Below are positions 1 to 7,850 of a stretch of 8,506 nt of DNA, piece after piece. Source of the stretch: Deltaproteobacteria bacterium (GTDB lineage: Bacteria; Desulfobacterota_B; Binatia; UBA9968); assembly GCA_016193385.1 (NCBI GenBank), contig JACPSF010000105.1, positions 1 through 8,506 of the forward strand, given 5' to 3'. The notes under the pieces are model-generated. The model saw nothing but the letters and a program-made list of their open reading frames with translations, had not been told where the DNA came from and ran no database searches. A program made the position numbers and the translations under genes. Position 1 is the first letter of the stretch. Each line of letters opens with the position of its first letter.

Positions 1-968
1 ACGATCTTTTCAATTTCCTCGCCGGAAACCGGATCGAGCTCCAGGCTCGCCTTCTTGGCCTCCTCCAGAAACTCCGGGTCCTTCAACGTCTCCTGAAAGG
101 CTCGCCGTAGAAGCTGCATGCGATCCTTGGGTGTGCCTGGGGGTAACGCATAAAGATAGGTTATGGCACTGGTGTCATGGATTCCTGCTTGAATCAGGTT
201 ACGCCCCTCCTCCGTTTTTGCGAGGCTTATCGTGAGCGCTACTTTAGGAAGATCGGGATGGGGCTTCGGAGCGCTTTGAAGGACGATATGGAATGAGCCC
301 GAGTCGAGTTGCTTTTTCCAGGTCAATTTCGCCGATGCCCACGAGAGCCCGCAAAGACCGTGGACTTCACCGCTCTCCGCTGCCATGCGGATCTCGGTTG
401 TTCCCTTGTAGCCGGCAACGATCTGGATCGGCAGACCGGTGGCCTCCCTGATGATGGCGGCCACGTCGTAGGGTGTGGCTCCGGGAGGAGTCGCGCCCAT
501 CTTGACCGGGGTTTTTGCGGTCATCCATTGTTCGGCGCTGGTGACACCGCTCTCCTTGCTGAGCAAGCAGAGATCATGGTTTTTGACCGGAGCGCCGATA
601 TATTCAAACTTACGCACGTCGAACTGGATTCCCTTGCGCCCGATGACCTGCGCTACGACCAGTGTCCCGATCCAGTTCCCGATGGTCAAGCCATCGGGTT
701 TGGCCTGATTGTAGAGATAGTTCGCTGCAATGATAAATCCGGCCCCGGGCATATTATCGACGATGATCGTGGGGCTGCCGGGAATGTGCTTCGGCATATG
801 CCGCGCCAGTGTCCTGGAGTAGGTATCAAAGCCTCCGCCGGCGGAACCGCCGACGATGATGCGAATAGTTTTGCCTTCGTAAAAAGGCGCCGCAGCCTCG
901 GCCGGCTGGGACACAAAGACAAAGCCGACCAAAATCGCCAACGCCACAAGAGCGCTTTTCAGGATCAT
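1..968 (-). CDS. Bug/TctC-type solute-binding receptor of the TTT (tripartite tricarboxylate transporter) family, 3' end missing
   Basis: A periplasmic receptor that captures a small, usually carboxylated solute. In the known family it delivers the solute to a TctA/TctB membrane pair. I translated it from the reverse complement: ATG at 968, then 322 open codons to the left edge. A signal peptide covers residues 1-26 (MILK start, hydrophobic core, AEA-A cleavage site). The mature N-terminus has the family pattern GKTIRIIVGGSAGGGFD (32-48), followed by PGAG (74-77), NYLYNQAKPDG (83-93), and the ligand-loop motif GYKG (187-190) before EIRMAAESGEVHG. The C-terminal helix pattern PKDRMQLLRRAFQETLKDPE (280-299) is present, so probably only a few residues are lost beyond the edge. 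The start follows GGAGG and a G-run. It is the last visible gene of the minus-strand operon, 61 nt after the TAXI gene. TctA/TctB genes are not visible; they could lie beyond the edge or be absent. The solute is unknown. Confidence 0.88.
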   Translation of the reverse strand, partial: MILKSALVALAILVGFVFVSQPAEAAAPFYEGKTIRIIVGGSAGGGFDTYSRTLARHMPKHIPGSPTIIVDNMPGAGFIIAANYLYNQAKPDGLTIGNWIGTLVVAQVIGRKGIQFDVRKFEYIGAPVKNHDLCLLSKESGVTSAEQWMTAKTPVKMGATPPGATPYDVAAIIREATGLPIQIVAGYKGTTEIRMAAESGEVHGLCGLSWASAKLTWKKQLDSGSFHIVLQSAPKPHPDLPKVALTISLAKTEEGRNLIQAGIHDTSAITYLYALPPGTPKDRMQLLRRAFQETLKDPEFLEEAKKASLELDPVSGEEIEKI

Positions 969-1029: not shown

Positions 1030-2076
1030 CTACTGGCAGATCTCCTTCATTTGAGCTTCGTGCTTTGCGGTCCAGACGCCCACTTCTTTGTAGAATTTGA
1101 TCGCCCCCGGATGATACGGGACCGTAAAATTGGTGATTGCCTGGGTCTCCTTCGTCCACCGCTTGAGCAGCGAGTGCTTGGGCTGGATCTCGCCGAGATG
1201 TTCCCACCAGGCTTTGACCAGGGTATAGACGGTCCTTTCGCTCACTTTCGTGGAACCTGAGAGCGTGAGCGGATAGCCGATCATATTGGCGCCCTCTTTG
1301 ACACCGGCGCTGGCCGGGGCTTTCGCGACCGACGCACCCACTTTGGCGAGAATTTTGGCGGCGGCCTCGGTGTTCGGCACGGTCAGGAAGCGAATCGGCT
1401 CACGGGCGTTGGCCTCCTCGTCAATGGCGATGCCCACTCCCGTGTTAGTTGCATCGACTCGCCCTTCCGTAACGCCCTGCGTGCCGTCGGCCATGTTCGA
1501 TACCCGAACCTGGATTACCTCGCTGGGCTTCACTCCGGCGATTTCCAGCGCGGCGTTCAGAAAGGTCTGGTTGGCGGCATGACCGCCGTAATCCCACGCA
1601 ACGCGCTTTCCCCTGAGGTCTTTGAGTTCCTTGATGTCGGATCTATCGCGAACGAATATCCCGGTGAAAAATGGGAAGACGCCTCCGGAAACTACGCGGA
1701 GAGCCGGACTCGGCTTCGGAAAGTTGCCGGTTCCAGTCATGGCCATGTAAGAATCGATAGTGTTGATGATCCCGAACTCCAGCTCCCCATTCTGCAAGAG
1801 GGAGATCCATGCGTTGGGTCCACTATGGGGCTGAACCCTCACTGAGATCGGGGTGTGATTGCTGCCCACCGCAGCCAAAGCCGTGCCCATGGCATGAGCG
1901 CCCGTTCCGGCCTGGTTGGTTCCGATCGTCGTGGTGCGCGGGAGGTCCGCGCTCGTGTTGCTGACCGGGCCGCAATCCACCCTGGCAGCTATGGCCGGTC
2001 CGACATGGAAAAAGGCCAACCAAGCCAAGCCCCAAGCCGCCAGCATCGTTACTGATCCAACAGACTTCTTTCCCAT
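1030..2076 (-). CDS. TAXI family TRAP transporter solute-binding subunit
   Basis: Extracytoplasmic receptor (348 aa) that should hand its ligand to the fused TRAP permease encoded just upstream in the same operon. A signal peptide is clear: GKK, a hydrophobic stretch at residues 10-28, and AIA-A cleavage near 30. The mature protein shows TAXI features in order: TTTIGTNQAGTGAHAMGTAL (48-67), the inter-strand segment LLQNGELEFGIINT (93-106), DLRGKRVAWDYGGHA (153-167), then VTEGRVDATNTGVG (202-215). The tail VPYHPGAIKFYKEVGVW (319-335) is also typical of the family. Length is normal. The ATG is preceded by AGGAGG 4 nt upstream. The usual TAXI glycine-rich site (GSPGG-like) is replaced by GTNQAGTG, and Cys35 lies just after the predicted signal peptide. 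TAXI ligands are known in few cases (glutamate, 2-oxoglutarate and related acids), so the substrate is not assigned. Confidence 0.93.
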   Translation of the reverse strand: MGKKSVGSVTMLAAWGLAWLAFFHVGPAIAARVDCGPVSNTSADLPRTTTIGTNQAGTGAHAMGTALAAVGSNHTPISVRVQPHSGPNAWISLLQNGELEFGIINTIDSYMAMTGTGNFPKPSPALRVVSGGVFPFFTGIFVRDRSDIKELKDLRGKRVAWDYGGHAANQTFLNAALEIAGVKPSEVIQVRVSNMADGTQGVTEGRVDATNTGVGIAIDEEANAREPIRFLTVPNTEAAAKILAKVGASVAKAPASAGVKEGANMIGYPLTLSGSTKVSERTVYTLVKAWWEHLGEIQPKHSLLKRWTKETQAITNFTVPYHPGAIKFYKEVGVWTAKHEAQMKEICQ

Positions 2077-2119: not shown

Positions 2120-4144
2120 TTAAGATTTTTCCTGCCCGGCCTGAGGCAGCTCTCCCGCAGATGCGGCGGCCACCTTTTCCTGCGTGTGTAGTCCCAAGCC
2201 GGTCCGTGCTCGACCCCGCGCTCGCAACTCTCCCGCCACCAGGAAGATCGCCAAGATCGACCCGGCAATGTTGGCGGCCCAACTGAAGTAGATGAGGTTG
2301 CCGCTGCTCACGATGGGAAGAAGTAGCCCGAGGGAGGCGGCGAAGAAGAGCGACCGGCGGATAAACCCGACTCCACGGAAAAGATAGCCGACCATGCCGA
2401 CGCCAAGCAAGATGGCTCCGAGAATAGCCGTGATCACCGACAAGGCGACGGTATGCCAGTGACCTATCAAAAGGAGTGAAGGTGACATAACGAACAGAAA
2501 CGGAACGACGTAGGCTATGGCGCACAGGCGCATACCTTCCCAGCCGGTGCGCATGGGATCAGTTTTGGCGATGGAGGCGGCCGCATAAGTCGCCAGGCAG
2601 ACCGGAGGCGTGATCATGCTCAGCATGCCGAAATAAAAAATGAATAGATGAGCGGCGAGTGGAAGGATTCCTAACTGGGCGAGGCTTGGGGCCACCAGGA
2701 CAGCCAAAAGGATATAGACCGCCGTCGTCGGCATCCCCATGCCGAGGATGATGCTGATGATGGCAGTAAGAAAAAGCAGCAAGAACGCGCTGCTCTGGCC
2801 CACGTTAATCAGGGTAAAGGTTAAAGTAAATCCGAGGCCCGTGAGCTGGAGAACGCCGATGACGACGCCGGCGAGACCTGTGACCGCGGCAATTTCCAGC
2901 AGACCCCGTCCCGTACTGGAAAGGATATTGAGAAGCTCGCGCGGTCCGAGCTTAATTCCCGGAGTCAACCACCCGATCACAAGGGCTGCTCCGGTAGCAG
3001 TGACCGCAGCCTCCTCCGGCCTGCGGTTCAAGATAAACATGTACAGGATCAGCACCGCGAGCGGGCCTATGAAGCCCGCCGATCTCTTCATGACCGGAAG
3101 CAGCCGGGGCAGCTCCTCACGAGGCAATCCCCGAATGCCGTCACGGGCCGCCAATAGGTCGACCTCGATGTAAAGCGCTACGTAGTAGAGGATCGCCGGC
3201 ACGAACGCGGCCAACGCCACCTCCGCATAGGGGAGTGTCAGATACTCCGCGATGAGAAACGCCGCAGCTCCCATGACCGGCGGCATGATCTGCCCGCCGG
3301 TGGAAGCGACCGCCTCGATTGCTGCGGCAACTGGAGCCGGATATCCGGCCCTCCGCATCATCGGGATCGTAAACGTGCCATCGACGACGACGTTGGCCAC
3401 CGCGCTGCCGCTGATATTCCCAAAAAGGCTCGAGGAGACAATAGCTATCTTGGCCGGACCGCCGCGGAAGCGGCCCATCACCGCTAGGGCGAAATCACTC
3501 AGAAAAGCTGCCCCACCGGTAGCGTAAAGCGTCTCCCCGAAGAGGATGAACACCAACACGATGCTCGCGCCAATTTTAAGCGCGATACCGAAGATACCGT
3601 TGGCGTCGAGATAGAGGTACGTAGACAATCGCGGTATGGCCCAACCCTTGCCGTAGAAATCGCCCGGAAAGATATACGCAAAAAGCGCATAAAAGAGAAA
3701 AAAGAGGGCGATGATCACCAAGGGCCAACCAACGAGCCGCCTGCAGGCCTCAACCAACAAAACCACAGTGACGAAGCCCAGGACGACTCGCTCGGGGTGA
3801 ATCTCGCCCAGCGACTTTGACAGCGTCGGATAATAGATAAAGATGTAGAGTCCGACCACGAGCCCGGCGACCGCCGCCAGGAGATCGTACCAGGGAACCC
3901 GATCAAGATGGCCCCAGGCTCCCTCCGGGACTATAAGGAAGGTGCTGAAAAGCGCCAGGGCCAGAAAAAGCCCGACGTACTGCTCGGGAAAGACCAGCCA
4001 GTTCAGGCGCTGCGGCAGATCGAGCAAGAAGAAAATCCCGGCCAGCGGCATGCCGATAAGCGCGAGATTGGCAATCCAGTTGATGGGACCCTGGAGGGGA
4101 CGCGAGCGCGGCAGTTCTTCAATGGCCATGTTGCGCCTGTGCAC
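2120..4144 (-). CDS. TRAP transporter fused permease subunit (DctQ-DctM fusion, TAXI-type)
   Basis: Inner-membrane permease (up to 674 aa) for ion-gradient-driven uptake with the TAXI receptor downstream. The N-terminal small-subunit part has hydrophobic segments near residues 24-42, 56-72, 88-106, 119-132 and 140-158. The large-subunit part carries the signatures of fused TRAP permeases: SSSLFGNISGSAVANVVVDG (237-256), GGQIMPPVMGAAAFLIAEYL (283-302), ILGMGMPTTAVYILLAVLVA (466-485) and GMLSMITPPVCLATYAAASI (506-525). A polar tail of about 35 residues ends the protein. The longest reading starts at a GTG at 4144, 3 nt after the stop of the upstream small ORF. An in-frame ATG at 4129 would give 669 aa and looks more natural. 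Neither has a strong Shine-Dalgarno, which suggests coupling to the upstream ORF. The stop lies 43 nt before the TAXI gene. Confidence 0.95.
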   Translation of the reverse strand: MHRRNMAIEELPRSRPLQGPINWIANLALIGMPLAGIFFLLDLPQRLNWLVFPEQYVGLFLALALFSTFLIVPEGAWGHLDRVPWYDLLAAVAGLVVGLYIFIYYPTLSKSLGEIHPERVVLGFVTVVLLVEACRRLVGWPLVIIALFFLFYALFAYIFPGDFYGKGWAIPRLSTYLYLDANGIFGIALKIGASIVLVFILFGETLYATGGAAFLSDFALAVMGRFRGGPAKIAIVSSSLFGNISGSAVANVVVDGTFTIPMMRRAGYPAPVAAAIEAVASTGGQIMPPVMGAAAFLIAEYLTLPYAEVALAAFVPAILYYVALYIEVDLLAARDGIRGLPREELPRLLPVMKRSAGFIGPLAVLILYMFILNRRPEEAAVTATGAALVIGWLTPGIKLGPRELLNILSSTGRGLLEIAAVTGLAGVVIGVLQLTGLGFTLTFTLINVGQSSAFLLLFLTAIISIILGMGMPTTAVYILLAVLVAPSLAQLGILPLAAHLFIFYFGMLSMITPPVCLATYAAASIAKTDPMRTGWEGMRLCAIAYVVPFLFVMSPSLLLIGHWHTVALSVITAILGAILLGVGMVGYLFRGVGFIRRSLFFAASLGLLLPIVSSGNLIYFSWAANIAGSILAIFLVAGELRARGRARTGLGLHTQEKVAAASAGELPQAGQEKS

Positions 4145-4490: not shown

Positions 4491-5021
4491 TTGACCGAGG
4501 ATGAAGTCCTACAAATTCTCAATCTGATAGAAAAATCGAGCTTTGATTTCCTGCAACTCGAACTCGGGGATCTAAAGCTCATGGTAAGCAAGAGCGGATA
4601 CATACCGGGCACCGCCGCCAATTCGTGGGCTGCTGCGGCCCCTGTTGGCCGGCCTGTAATCTCGTCCACCGCGGAAACGAAAGAGCCGGCAGCGCAGGCC
4701 AAGCCGGCCCGGGCCGAGGCAAAGCCCATAGACACCGGTGTTGTGGAGGGCGCGGTCGCGATCACCGCGCCGATGGTCGGAACCTTTTACACCGCGCCGG
4801 AACCAGGCGCGGCTCCCTTCGTTCAACTCGGCGCCCGCGTCGACGAGGACGCGACGGTAGGTCTCATCGAAGTGATGAAAGTGTTCAACGCCGTTAAGTC
4901 GGGGGCCCCCGGCGTCATTGCCAAGATCTGCGTCGAAAACGGCCAGATTGTTGAATACGGACAAACGCTCTTCCTGGTCCGCCCGGAGGTGGTCTTGGAT
5001 AATGAGGACCCGCCGGAATGA
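4491..5021 (+). CDS. accB: Biotin carboxyl carrier protein (AccB-type BCCP)
   Basis: Carries the biotin that shuttles CO2 between the biotin carboxylase and the carboxyltransferase encoded downstream. It is 176 aa. The N-terminal domain (residues 1-36) resembles the AccB N-terminus: a helix with LNLIEKS, then a strand pair around LQLELGDLKLMVSK. A flexible Ala/Pro/Lys linker spans about 40-85. The biotinyl domain (87-166) begins APMVGTFYTAPEPGAAPF, including the AccB-type thumb loop, and has the biotinylation motif EVMKV with Lys130 as acceptor (usual form EAMKM). The start is TTG behind GGGGAGGGAGAG; the next in-frame ATG would remove the N-terminal domain. It overlaps the biotin carboxylase by 4 nt (ATGA), implying coupled translation. 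The symbol reflects the family: with an OadA-like partner instead of AccA/AccD, the complex is probably not acetyl-CoA carboxylase. Confidence 0.92.
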   Translation: MTEDEVLQILNLIEKSSFDFLQLELGDLKLMVSKSGYIPGTAANSWAAAAPVGRPVISSTAETKEPAAQAKPARAEAKPIDTGVVEGAVAITAPMVGTFYTAPEPGAAPFVQLGARVDEDATVGLIEVMKVFNAVKSGAPGVIAKICVENGQIVEYGQTLFLVRPEVVLDNEDPPE

Positions 5022-6389: not shown

Positions 6390-7850
6390 ATGGCCGAGAT
6401 TATTTTCGTCGACACGACCTTGCGAGACGGCCATCAGAGCCTTTGGGCCGAGAACATGACCACCGGGATGATGCTGCCGATCGCGGAGCGGATGGATAAC
6501 GCCGGCTTCGAAGCCATCGAGATGATATCCAGCTCGCACATGAAGAAATGTGTACGCGAGCTTAAAGAGGACCCGTGGGAGAGGGTTCGACTGATCTCCC
6601 GGCGGATCAAAAAGACTCCGCTTCGTCTTATCGCCGGAAGATTCAACACCTTTGGCATCACGCCGCAGTCGGTGTACCACCTGTTCGTCGAGCGCATGGC
6701 GGCGAACGGACTGCGGCAAGCGCGGATCTCAGATGAGTGGAACGATCCCGAGAGCTGGAAGCGCAAGGTCGACGTGGCTCGAGATGTCGGCATGGAGCCG
6801 ATCATCAATTTGATTTACTCCGTTTCCCCGAAGCACACGGACGAGTATTACGCCCGAAAGACCCGAGAGGCGGTTGCCCTGGGGGTGCGCCGGCTGTGCC
6901 TCAAAGATCCGGGTGGTTTGCTCACTCCCGAGCGCGTCCAAAGCCTTGTGCCGGTGATCTTTCAAAACAGCAACGGCATACCACTCGAGCTCCACACCCA
7001 CTGTACGACGGGTCTTGGGCCCCTCTGCGCCGTGGAGGCCATAAAACTTGGAATCCGGGTTATCAATACGGCCGTTCCGCCGCTGGCGAATTCCGCCTCC
7101 AACCCTTCGGTCTTCAACGTTGCGCGCAACGCCCGCGCCTTGGGCCACACGCCGATAGTCGACGAGGAACTGCTCAGGACGGTAATGGAGCATTTCACCG
7201 GCGTCGCCAAACGGGCGGGGCTGCCGATCGGGGCTCCCGTCGAATACGACACCTCGCAGTACCTGCACCAGGTGCCTGGCGGTATGATCACGAACCTGCG
7301 CCACCAGCTGCGCCGCGTAGGACTGGAGGACCGTCTGGGAAAGGCCCTGGAAGAGGCCGCCCTTGTTCGCGCTGAGTTCGGCTATCCCATCATGGTCACT
7401 CCCTTGTCGCAGTACGTCGGGAGCCAGGCGGCAATCAACGTCATCGTCGGCGAGCGCTATAAAGAAGTTACCGACCAGGTCATTCAATACGCGCTCGGGC
7501 TGTGGGGTAAAGAAGGCGCAACCTCGATGGACCCGAACGTCAAGGACAAAATCCTGAACCGCCCGCGGGCGAAAGAGCTGGGTAAGTGGGAGCCGCCTGA
7601 ACCGTCGGTTCAGGAAATTCGTCAGAAGCACGGCGGTCCGGGAATTTCCGACGAGGAACTGCTGCTGCGCTGGATCCTCAGCAAAGACGAGATCGCCGCC
7701 ATGCGCGCCGCCGGCCCGCCCAAAGAATACCTGAGCGCGGCGCAGCCTTTGGTCGCGTTAATTGAAGAACTCTCCAAGCGATCCGACTGCAGCCAAATCC
7801 GCTTTCAGAAGGGCGATCTCCGGGTTGCCCTGGAAAAGAAGAGCCCGTGA
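6390..7850 (+). CDS. Carboxyltransferase subunit of a biotin-dependent carboxylase (OadA/PycB/transcarboxylase-5S-like), non-canonical substrate pocket
   Basis: Predicted to transfer CO2 between carboxybiotin on the separate BCCP and an organic acid. It is 486 aa. An HMG-lyase-like TIM barrel (about 5-265) has TTLRDGHQS (9-17; Arg12, Asp13, Gln16), LCLKDPGGLLTP (169-180; Lys172, the likely carbamylated metal ligand) and LHTH (201-204; metal ligands His202, His204). The conserved carboxylase domain (about 288-395) has VPGGMITNL, whose Thr301 matches the catalytic threonine of pyruvate carboxylase. There is no C-terminal biotinyl domain or xMKM motif, as in transcarboxylase 5S. The usual GGATFD segment is SSSHMK (47-52) and the RGxN segment is AGRFN (82-86), so the acceptor may not be pyruvate or oxaloacetate. 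Residues 452-484 resemble the AccB N-terminal domain. The ATG follows AGAGGA, 10 nt after the biotin carboxylase stop. Automated pipelines would probably call it pyruvate carboxylase subunit B or oxaloacetate decarboxylase alpha. Confidence 0.88.
   Translation: MAEIIFVDTTLRDGHQSLWAENMTTGMMLPIAERMDNAGFEAIEMISSSHMKKCVRELKEDPWERVRLISRRIKKTPLRLIAGRFNTFGITPQSVYHLFVERMAANGLRQARISDEWNDPESWKRKVDVARDVGMEPIINLIYSVSPKHTDEYYARKTREAVALGVRRLCLKDPGGLLTPERVQSLVPVIFQNSNGIPLELHTHCTTGLGPLCAVEAIKLGIRVINTAVPPLANSASNPSVFNVARNARALGHTPIVDEELLRTVMEHFTGVAKRAGLPIGAPVEYDTSQYLHQVPGGMITNLRHQLRRVGLEDRLGKALEEAALVRAEFGYPIMVTPLSQYVGSQAAINVIVGERYKEVTDQVIQYALGLWGKEGATSMDPNVKDKILNRPRAKELGKWEPPEPSVQEIRQKHGGPGISDEELLLRWILSKDEIAAMRAAGPPKEYLSAAQPLVALIEELSKRSDCSQIRFQKGDLRVALEKKSP

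Follow-up and report, generated by a model that had tools for sequence, protein, structure and literature searches.

An 8,506 nt stretch of DNA from a Deltaproteobacteria bacterium of the class Binatia (assembly GCA_016193385.1, contig JACPSF010000105.1; hereafter the window) encodes a biotin carboxyl carrier protein (BCCP), a biotin carboxylase (BC) and an OadA-type carboxyltransferase (CT) as three separate subunits, followed by an amidohydrolase gene. The CT has kept the catalytic core of pyruvate carboxylase (PC) and oxaloacetate decarboxylase (OAD) and has lost their pyruvate pocket, and it belongs to a family present in up to eleven copies per genome alongside at most one detected BC of the window type. 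We lean slightly towards reading the system as a ketone alpha-carboxylase coupled to a C-C hydrolase, in which one BC-BCCP engine serves many CT heads. What stands out as unexpected is the multiplication of the CTs around one engine, together with the match between their tail and the BCCP.

Pfam matches to PYC_OADA (88.9 bits) and HMGL-like (62.1 bits) place the CT in the OadA/PC-type superfamily, and its best solved relatives by phmmer are 5ks8 (231 bits), 2nx9 (217 bits) and 1s3h (199 bits). An earlier note, made from the sequence alone, had described the metal and chemistry residues as intact and three substrate-side segments as different from those of PC and OAD, and both observations are borne out. 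Residues R12, D13, Q16, K172, H202, H204 and T301 align with the PC and OAD residues in the phmmer alignments, and R12, D13, K172, D173, H202, H204, T337 and Q341 are conserved in all 76 Binatia-type rows of the multiple alignment. We take R. etli PC numbering to link these residues to functions, Lys172 presumably being the carbamylated metal-ligand lysine of PC. Where PC and OAD read EAWGGATFD or ECWGGATFD, LLRGQNLLGY and FRIFDAMND, the window CT reads EMISSSHMK (residues 44-52), IAGRFNTFGI (81-90) and ARISDEWND (111-119), and the pyruvate-pocket motifs WGGATFD, LRGQN..GY and FRI/VFD are absent from it. The residues W46, G47, G48 and D52 are found in 13/13 rows of the PC, OAD and transcarboxylase 5S subunit (5S) type, a set in which three rows are partial PDB sequences and six come from Binatia genomes, whereas W46 and D52 occur in none of the 76 Binatia-type rows; column 114 holds Ser in 75/76 of the latter and Phe in 13/13 of the former. 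Eight partial CTs, and duplicates by identical core, were removed before these counts. Because the core residues are conserved in all 76 rows, the combination of intact core and changed pocket is not a chance occurrence. The earlier note puts Lys52 at the position of R. etli PC Asp590, and the Arg621 and Tyr628 equivalents that it had reported as moved or lost align with G83 (pairwise) or A82 (multiple alignment) and with I90 (pairwise) or F88 (multiple alignment), respectively. Among the new lysines of the Binatia-type rows, Lys52, present in 68/76, was rejected as the key new residue since it is less conserved than Lys53, which is invariant (76/76).

In a quick maximum-likelihood tree of 103 CT rows, a 90-row superclade is split from PC, OAD, 5S and the OadA/PC-like Binatia copies (SH-aLRT 100, branch 0.94). 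The closest relative found is on a contig of 'Deltaproteobacteria bacterium RIFCSPLOWO2_02_FULL_57_26', whose CT shares 98% identity with that of the window and was left out of the tree; other close relatives are mostly labelled Candidatus Binatia or Deltaproteobacteria. The window CT lies in a 75-row group otherwise made up of sequences from Binatia-type genomes plus a copy from S. faviae. Elsewhere in the superclade are a five-row group, comprising three annotated plasmid CTs of hpe/mar-like loci and two from unannotated plasmids, and further plasmid CTs from Caballeronia, Arthrobacter, Cnuibacter, Novosphingobium and Rhodococcus, as well as a CT from Sulfitobacter dubius. Some rows (S. dubius, Peptoclostridium) are placed with less certainty because long branches meet there, as the program warned. 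The phylogeny proposed as a check in the earlier note therefore places the CT outside the characterised PC and OAD clades.

This placement bears directly on whether the enzyme is simply a divergent PC or OAD. The window CT does share its fold, metal and carbamyl-lysine core with two-subunit and polypeptide PC, the OAD alpha subunit and transcarboxylase 5S, but it lacks the pyruvate-pocket motifs, has no fused BCCP and carries an extra helix-hairpin tail. It also falls below all listed NCBIfam cutoffs (PRK09282, 332.7 against 402; oadA, 310.7 against 756.5; PRK12999, 168.9 against 965), and the near-complete genomes G029 and G034 each have a separate OadA/PC-like CT (34-36% identity) that retains the WGGATFD pocket. 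We regard a divergent PC or OAD as very improbable. From sequence comparison, the acceptor of the CT is likely not pyruvate, since a separate clade, an own pocket and an intact core coincide, and the different acceptor postulated in the earlier note is well supported. Its further suggestion of a possibly undescribed biotin-dependent carboxylase has to be given up in that form: the carboxylase type is not wholly undescribed, because the superclade includes CTs of loci arranged like the hpe/mar clusters, and HpeCBA is a characterised enzyme. A literature search, with most subscription papers outside its reach, turned up no paper that names the acceptor of this CT branch; PMC3199775 mentions PC-type CT sequences that are divergent and have no known function.

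Several relatives in this part of the family have features of their own. Position 172 is Glu in two plasmid CTs from Rhodococcus (L038 and L044) and Tyr in that from Novosphingobium resinovorum (L041), which also has Asn at 204, and the S. dubius CT (L043) has Ser at 172 and Asn at 13; some of these four, judged by their core substitutions, may have altered chemistry. A relative of the S. faviae CT (P0249) carries the name CfiA (2-oxoglutarate carboxylase) in its source label, and another sequence (P0251, BAH89749.1, an uncultured bacterium record) shares 80% of its residues with the latter.

The nearest characterised systems are HpeCBA, Acv and XccBCA (Rhodococcus GD02, Sphingobium SYK-6 and Aromatoleum EbN1), which consist, as in the window, of three separate subunits, BC, BCCP and an OadA-type CT. 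The CTs compared here are proxies from hpe/mar-like loci and not the CTs of these three strains. The plasmid locus of R. leguminosarum BT01 contains genes for phosphoenolpyruvate (PEP)-utilizing and PEP/pyruvate-binding proteins, BCCP, BC, CT, a haloacid dehalogenase-type (HAD) protein, acetoacetate-coenzyme A (CoA) ligase and an amidohydrolase, in almost the order of hpe. The loci of P. putida YC-AE1 and Sphingobium YC-JY1 encode a Tm-1-like ATP-binding protein, BCCP, BC, CT and HAD; the Tm-1-like protein is presumably the MarK kinase. MarK is described as a single-component kinase in PMC13101465. According to PMC9618137, HpeCBA carboxylates 4-phospho-acetophenone and 4-phospho-acetovanillone, and their unphosphorylated forms not detectably. 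The same paper names HpeA as the biotin carboxylase (57.4 kDa) and HpeB as the carboxyltransferase (49.3 kDa), names that may be swapped, judging by the sizes seen here (BC ~455 aa, CT ~490 aa).

The window could accordingly be thought to encode a phosphophenylethanone carboxylase of this kind, acting on phosphorylated aryl ketones. The subunit composition is the same, the CTs of hpe/mar-type loci belong to the same superclade, mostly have the same C-terminal tail and lack the WGGATFD pocket, the pocket strings are similar (SSSHM in the window, SSTHM or TSTHM in three hpe/mar-type rows), and an HpeF-type amidohydrolase is found in the locus there and adjoins the CT here. However, the window has no kinase or HAD phosphatase gene. 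Genome-wide, MarK-type kinases were found in 0/18 genomes by a search run without a positive control, and HpeI-type kinases matched in 2/18, both in open frames of 909-969 codons, the size expected for PEP synthase. The window CT is 36-42% identical to the five-row hpe/mar group and branches outside it, and the Lys52/Lys53 pair and the association of one BC-BCCP with many CT paralogues also set the Binatia system apart. An HpeCBA-like function on phosphorylated substrates thus appears quite improbable.

The CT is multiplied in this bacterial order. At a threshold of E <= 1e-100, 201 CT paralogues were counted in 35/35 genomes of the order, with 1-11 per genome, and of 23 further genomes searched in the class, three gave any CT match at E 0.001 (best 7.5e-60). 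The window-type BC (61-98% identity) was detected as a single copy in 25/35 genomes and as two copies in none; at E 1e-100 one other BC was recovered, with 47-51% identity, and a search with the BC C-terminal domain returned exactly two per genome in 6/6 genomes. Restricting the count to the 16 genomes with completeness of 90% or more and contamination of 5% or less leaves 110 CTs against 15 window-type BCs. The window-type BCCP is present in one copy in 11/12 genomes, G029 having one additional weak match (40%). The near-complete genomes G029 (a single contig) and G034 have 10 and 9 CTs, respectively, against one stand-alone BC-BCCP pair each; the ten CTs of G029 (53-69%) are scattered on the chromosome, the nearest ~40 kb from BC-BCCP, and the nearest in G034 is 16.5 kb away. 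An in-frame TAG in one CT copy of G029 follows residue 481, the usual C-terminus, and hence does not mark a pseudogene. Region maps, with genes called by a codon-score caller, show BC-BCCP adjoining a CT in G008, G010 and G018, and no CT in the ~7-9 kb mapped to each side of the pair in G007, G021, G029 and G034 (4/7 mapped genomes), where the pair therefore presumably serves a distant CT. Genes of one sequence cluster (c6), a UbiD-type decarboxylase by the single representative typed, share the mapped stretch with CT or BC-BCCP genes in six loci (L116, L129, L131, L138, L140 and L148).

With up to eleven CTs and at most one detected window-type BC, these counts suggest that one BC-BCCP engine drives many interchangeable CT heads. 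Alternatively, the orphan paralogues could be biotin-independent enzymes, such as metal-dependent lyases, aldolases or decarboxylases, with only the CT beside BC-BCCP being a true carboxyltransferase. The conservation of Lys172 and the PC-type histidines in every Binatia-type row speaks against this, as do the retention of the BCCP-like tail in orphan copies and the BC-BCCP pairs without an adjacent CT; we hold it to be unlikely, though not negligible. The paralogues might instead form hetero-oligomers, with several CTs in one enzyme. Such an arrangement would be in keeping with the CT-amidohydrolase-CT pairs in seven loci, with the tandem triple CTs of G034 (L140, 8187-12654) and G029 (L148, 6626-11113), and with a Desulfobacterales contig (L032, 5843-11488) in which three CTs occur with a BCCP-like gene among them. 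It is clearly unlikely all the same, as 6/9 CTs in G034 and 7/10 in G029 are single and far apart, and every CT row retains its own core. The proposed sharing of one engine among alternative heads has a partial parallel. Mycobacterial acyl-CoA carboxylases have a different CT fold and a fused BC-BCCP. Several of their complexes are assembled from redundant CT genes and subunits that carry BC, as described in PMC4347857; these enzymes act on acyl-CoA substrates, whereas the Binatia order has a single BC and a single BCCP alongside as many as 11 OadA-type CTs. Our literature search found no description of BC-BCCP sharing for OadA-type CTs or for Binatia, and 'biotin', 'amidohydrolase' and 'oxaloacetate decarboxylase' have 0 occurrences in the main text of the Binatota paper PMC8262859.

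A possible means of recruitment is found at the end of the CT. The superclade CTs terminate in a stretch of 30-40 residues (window 450-486) without counterpart in PC or OAD. A tail profile trained on half of the rows detects 85/90 superclade rows at E < 0.01, which is not an independent count because near-identical relatives fall in both halves, and 0/10 PC/OAD-type rows, also when these are extended to their own C-termini. Compared by hhalign with a profile of the BCCP N-terminus (19 rows), the tail profile (90 rows) scores 24.5 with a probability of 87%, above the maximum of 15.4 among 60 column permutations. AlphaFold2 predictions give the same order of elements in both, with a helix at 453-462 and strands at 469-474 and 477-482 in the CT tail, and a helix at 3-15 and strands at 20-25 and 28-33 in the BCCP (pLDDT ~50-70, from six sequences). 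A scan of 895 neighbour proteins with the tail profile gave 82 matches. Of these, 76 are CTs and account for all CTs above 400 aa among the proteins scanned, five are short fragments of CT genes, and one is a BCCP (E 0.041). Neither the CT tail nor the BCCP N-terminus matched NCBIfam. This similarity would be consistent with docking through the CT tail and the BCCP N-terminus.

The gene 3' of the CT offers a candidate for the next step. An amidohydrolase of one cluster lies directly 3' of the CT in 17/35 loci (34 fetched and the window). Over its 187 codons, the window protein shares 38% identity with its homologues in the loci of R. leguminosarum and P. putida, and 43% with that of Rhodococcus JS3073, which sits ~3 kb downstream of its CT; a full-length Binatia amidohydrolase (L007) shares 44, 41 and 43% with the same three. 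Table 1 of PMC9618137 lists the last hpe gene of GD02, hpeF, as 95% identical to couO, and PMC4737184 presents CouO as an amidohydrolase-superfamily enzyme that performs the final deacetylation step. By analogy with these beta-ketoacyl-CoA hydrolases, for which a PF04909 member is likewise located downstream of the carboxylase, the window amidohydrolase may have an HpeF/CouO-like role, a likeness known through the homologues (38-44%) near three hpe/mar-group CTs and not through the CouO and HpeF sequences themselves. Amidohydrolases of clusters c1 and c5 are about three times as frequent near CTs as the genome average (8 against 2.4 expected, and 10 against 3.3), to which we give little weight in view of the 98-116 such genes in each genome; the two genomes belong to the same genus and are not independent, and the counts were read by eye from region maps. 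The expansion of Amidohydro_2 genes in G029 and G034 is striking and parallels that of the CTs. In Rhodococcus JS3073 (L050), an apparent fusion of a CoA ligase with an amidohydrolase was rejected, the Pfam match covering only residues 673-951 of a 953-codon frame.

Taken together, the proposed mechanism would begin with BC carboxylating the biotin on BCCP Lys130 using ATP and bicarbonate. The CT, a carbamyl-lysine/metal TIM barrel, would transfer the carboxyl group to the carbon beside the ketone of a non-pyruvate acceptor to form a beta-keto acid, which the amidohydrolase would cleave, directly or as its CoA ester, to a shorter acid and acetate or acetyl-CoA. The acceptor, possibly imported by the adjoining TRAP/TctC systems, is probably an organic ketone that is anionic and carries no phosphate: a ketone because the HpeCBA substrates and pyruvate are both alpha-CH ketones, unphosphorylated because kinase genes are mostly missing, and perhaps anionic because of Lys52/Lys53 and the acid-type transporters nearby. 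A single BC-BCCP pair would charge all 1-11 CT paralogues, docking by way of the helix-hairpin on the CT tail and the BCCP N-terminus. For the full platform, in which one BC and one BCCP serve up to eleven plug-in CT heads with their own pockets, recruit them by the helix-hairpin and carboxylate unphosphorylated ketones ahead of amidohydrolase cleavage, we would give somewhat less than an even chance.

A number of observations weigh against this interpretation. The window-type BC was not found in 10/35 genomes; all ten are in 190-960 contigs, yet three of them are 91-94% complete. Other biotinyl/lipoyl proteins occur in every genome searched, with 5-7 matches each in six genomes. The pocket segments are barely more variable than the remainder of the CT among paralogues (permutation p 0.056 and 0.063). 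The tail was not detected in five of the 90 superclade rows (L041, L042, L043, L049 and L050), and the start of E. coli BCCP (4hr7) resembles the tail/BCCP element, so that the binding partner of the helix-hairpin may be BC and not the CT tail; on these sequence similarities it may be an old element for binding BC or CT. There is no CoA ligase gene in the window, in contrast to the description of HpeF as acting on a CoA ester, and amidohydrolase genes are very numerous, with 116 (G029) and 98 (G034) Amidohydro_2 matches in genomes of 4.2-4.3 Mb, so that most amidohydrolases near CTs are weak evidence.

The features of the window are listed in Table 1. The BC and BCCP genes overlap by 4 bases, and the BCCP scores 113.4 against TIGR00531, slightly below the cutoff of 115.2.

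Table 1. Features of the 8,506 nt window, with positions counted from its first nucleotide.
Feature	Position	Strand	Remarks
TctC-like solute-binding protein	3..968	-	PF03401 45.4 bits; cut by window end
TAXI-family TRAP solute-binding protein	1030..2076	-	TRAP_TAXI 160 vs cutoff 84
TRAP transporter fused permease, divergent neighbour	2120..4144	-	PF06808 305 bits; TRAP_fused 616 vs cutoff 321
BCCP subunit, 176 aa, TTG start, biotinyl domain C-terminal	4491..5021	+	PF00364 56.4 bits
BCCP N-terminal helix and beta-hairpin, residues 3-33, proposed docking element	4497..4589	+	
Biotin Lys130 in EVMKVFNAV of BCCP	codon 4878-4880	+	
BC subunit, 453 aa	5018..6379	+	PF00289/PF02786/PF02785; PRK08591 647.7 vs cutoff 597
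OadA-type CT, 486 aa, non-pyruvate pocket	6390..7850	+	
CT pocket segment 1, EMISSSHMK, residues 44-52	6519..6545	+	Lys53 codon next, 6546-6548
CT pocket segment 2, IAGRFNTFGI, residues 81-90	6630..6659	+	
CT pocket segment 3, ARISDEWND, residues 111-119	6720..6746	+	
CT Lys172 codon	6903..6905	+	Conserved in 76/76 Binatia-type rows
CT C-terminal tail, residues 453-482, helix and beta-hairpin, proposed docking element	7746..7835	+	
Amidohydrolase, HpeF/CouO-like by homology, first 187 codons	7945..8505, runs off window	+	PF04909 (Amidohydro_2) 77.8 bits

PC-type biotin carboxylases are usually viewed as one enzyme with one substrate. If the proposed reading is true, interchangeable OadA-type heads would extend the list of acceptors beyond pyruvate, oxaloacetate and phospho-aryl ketones, and would help to account for the many genes labelled 'oxaloacetate decarboxylase alpha subunit'. 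The system would also provide a modular scaffold on which carbon dioxide is added at the expense of ATP and, for the uncultured Binatia, a testable route of ketone breakdown.
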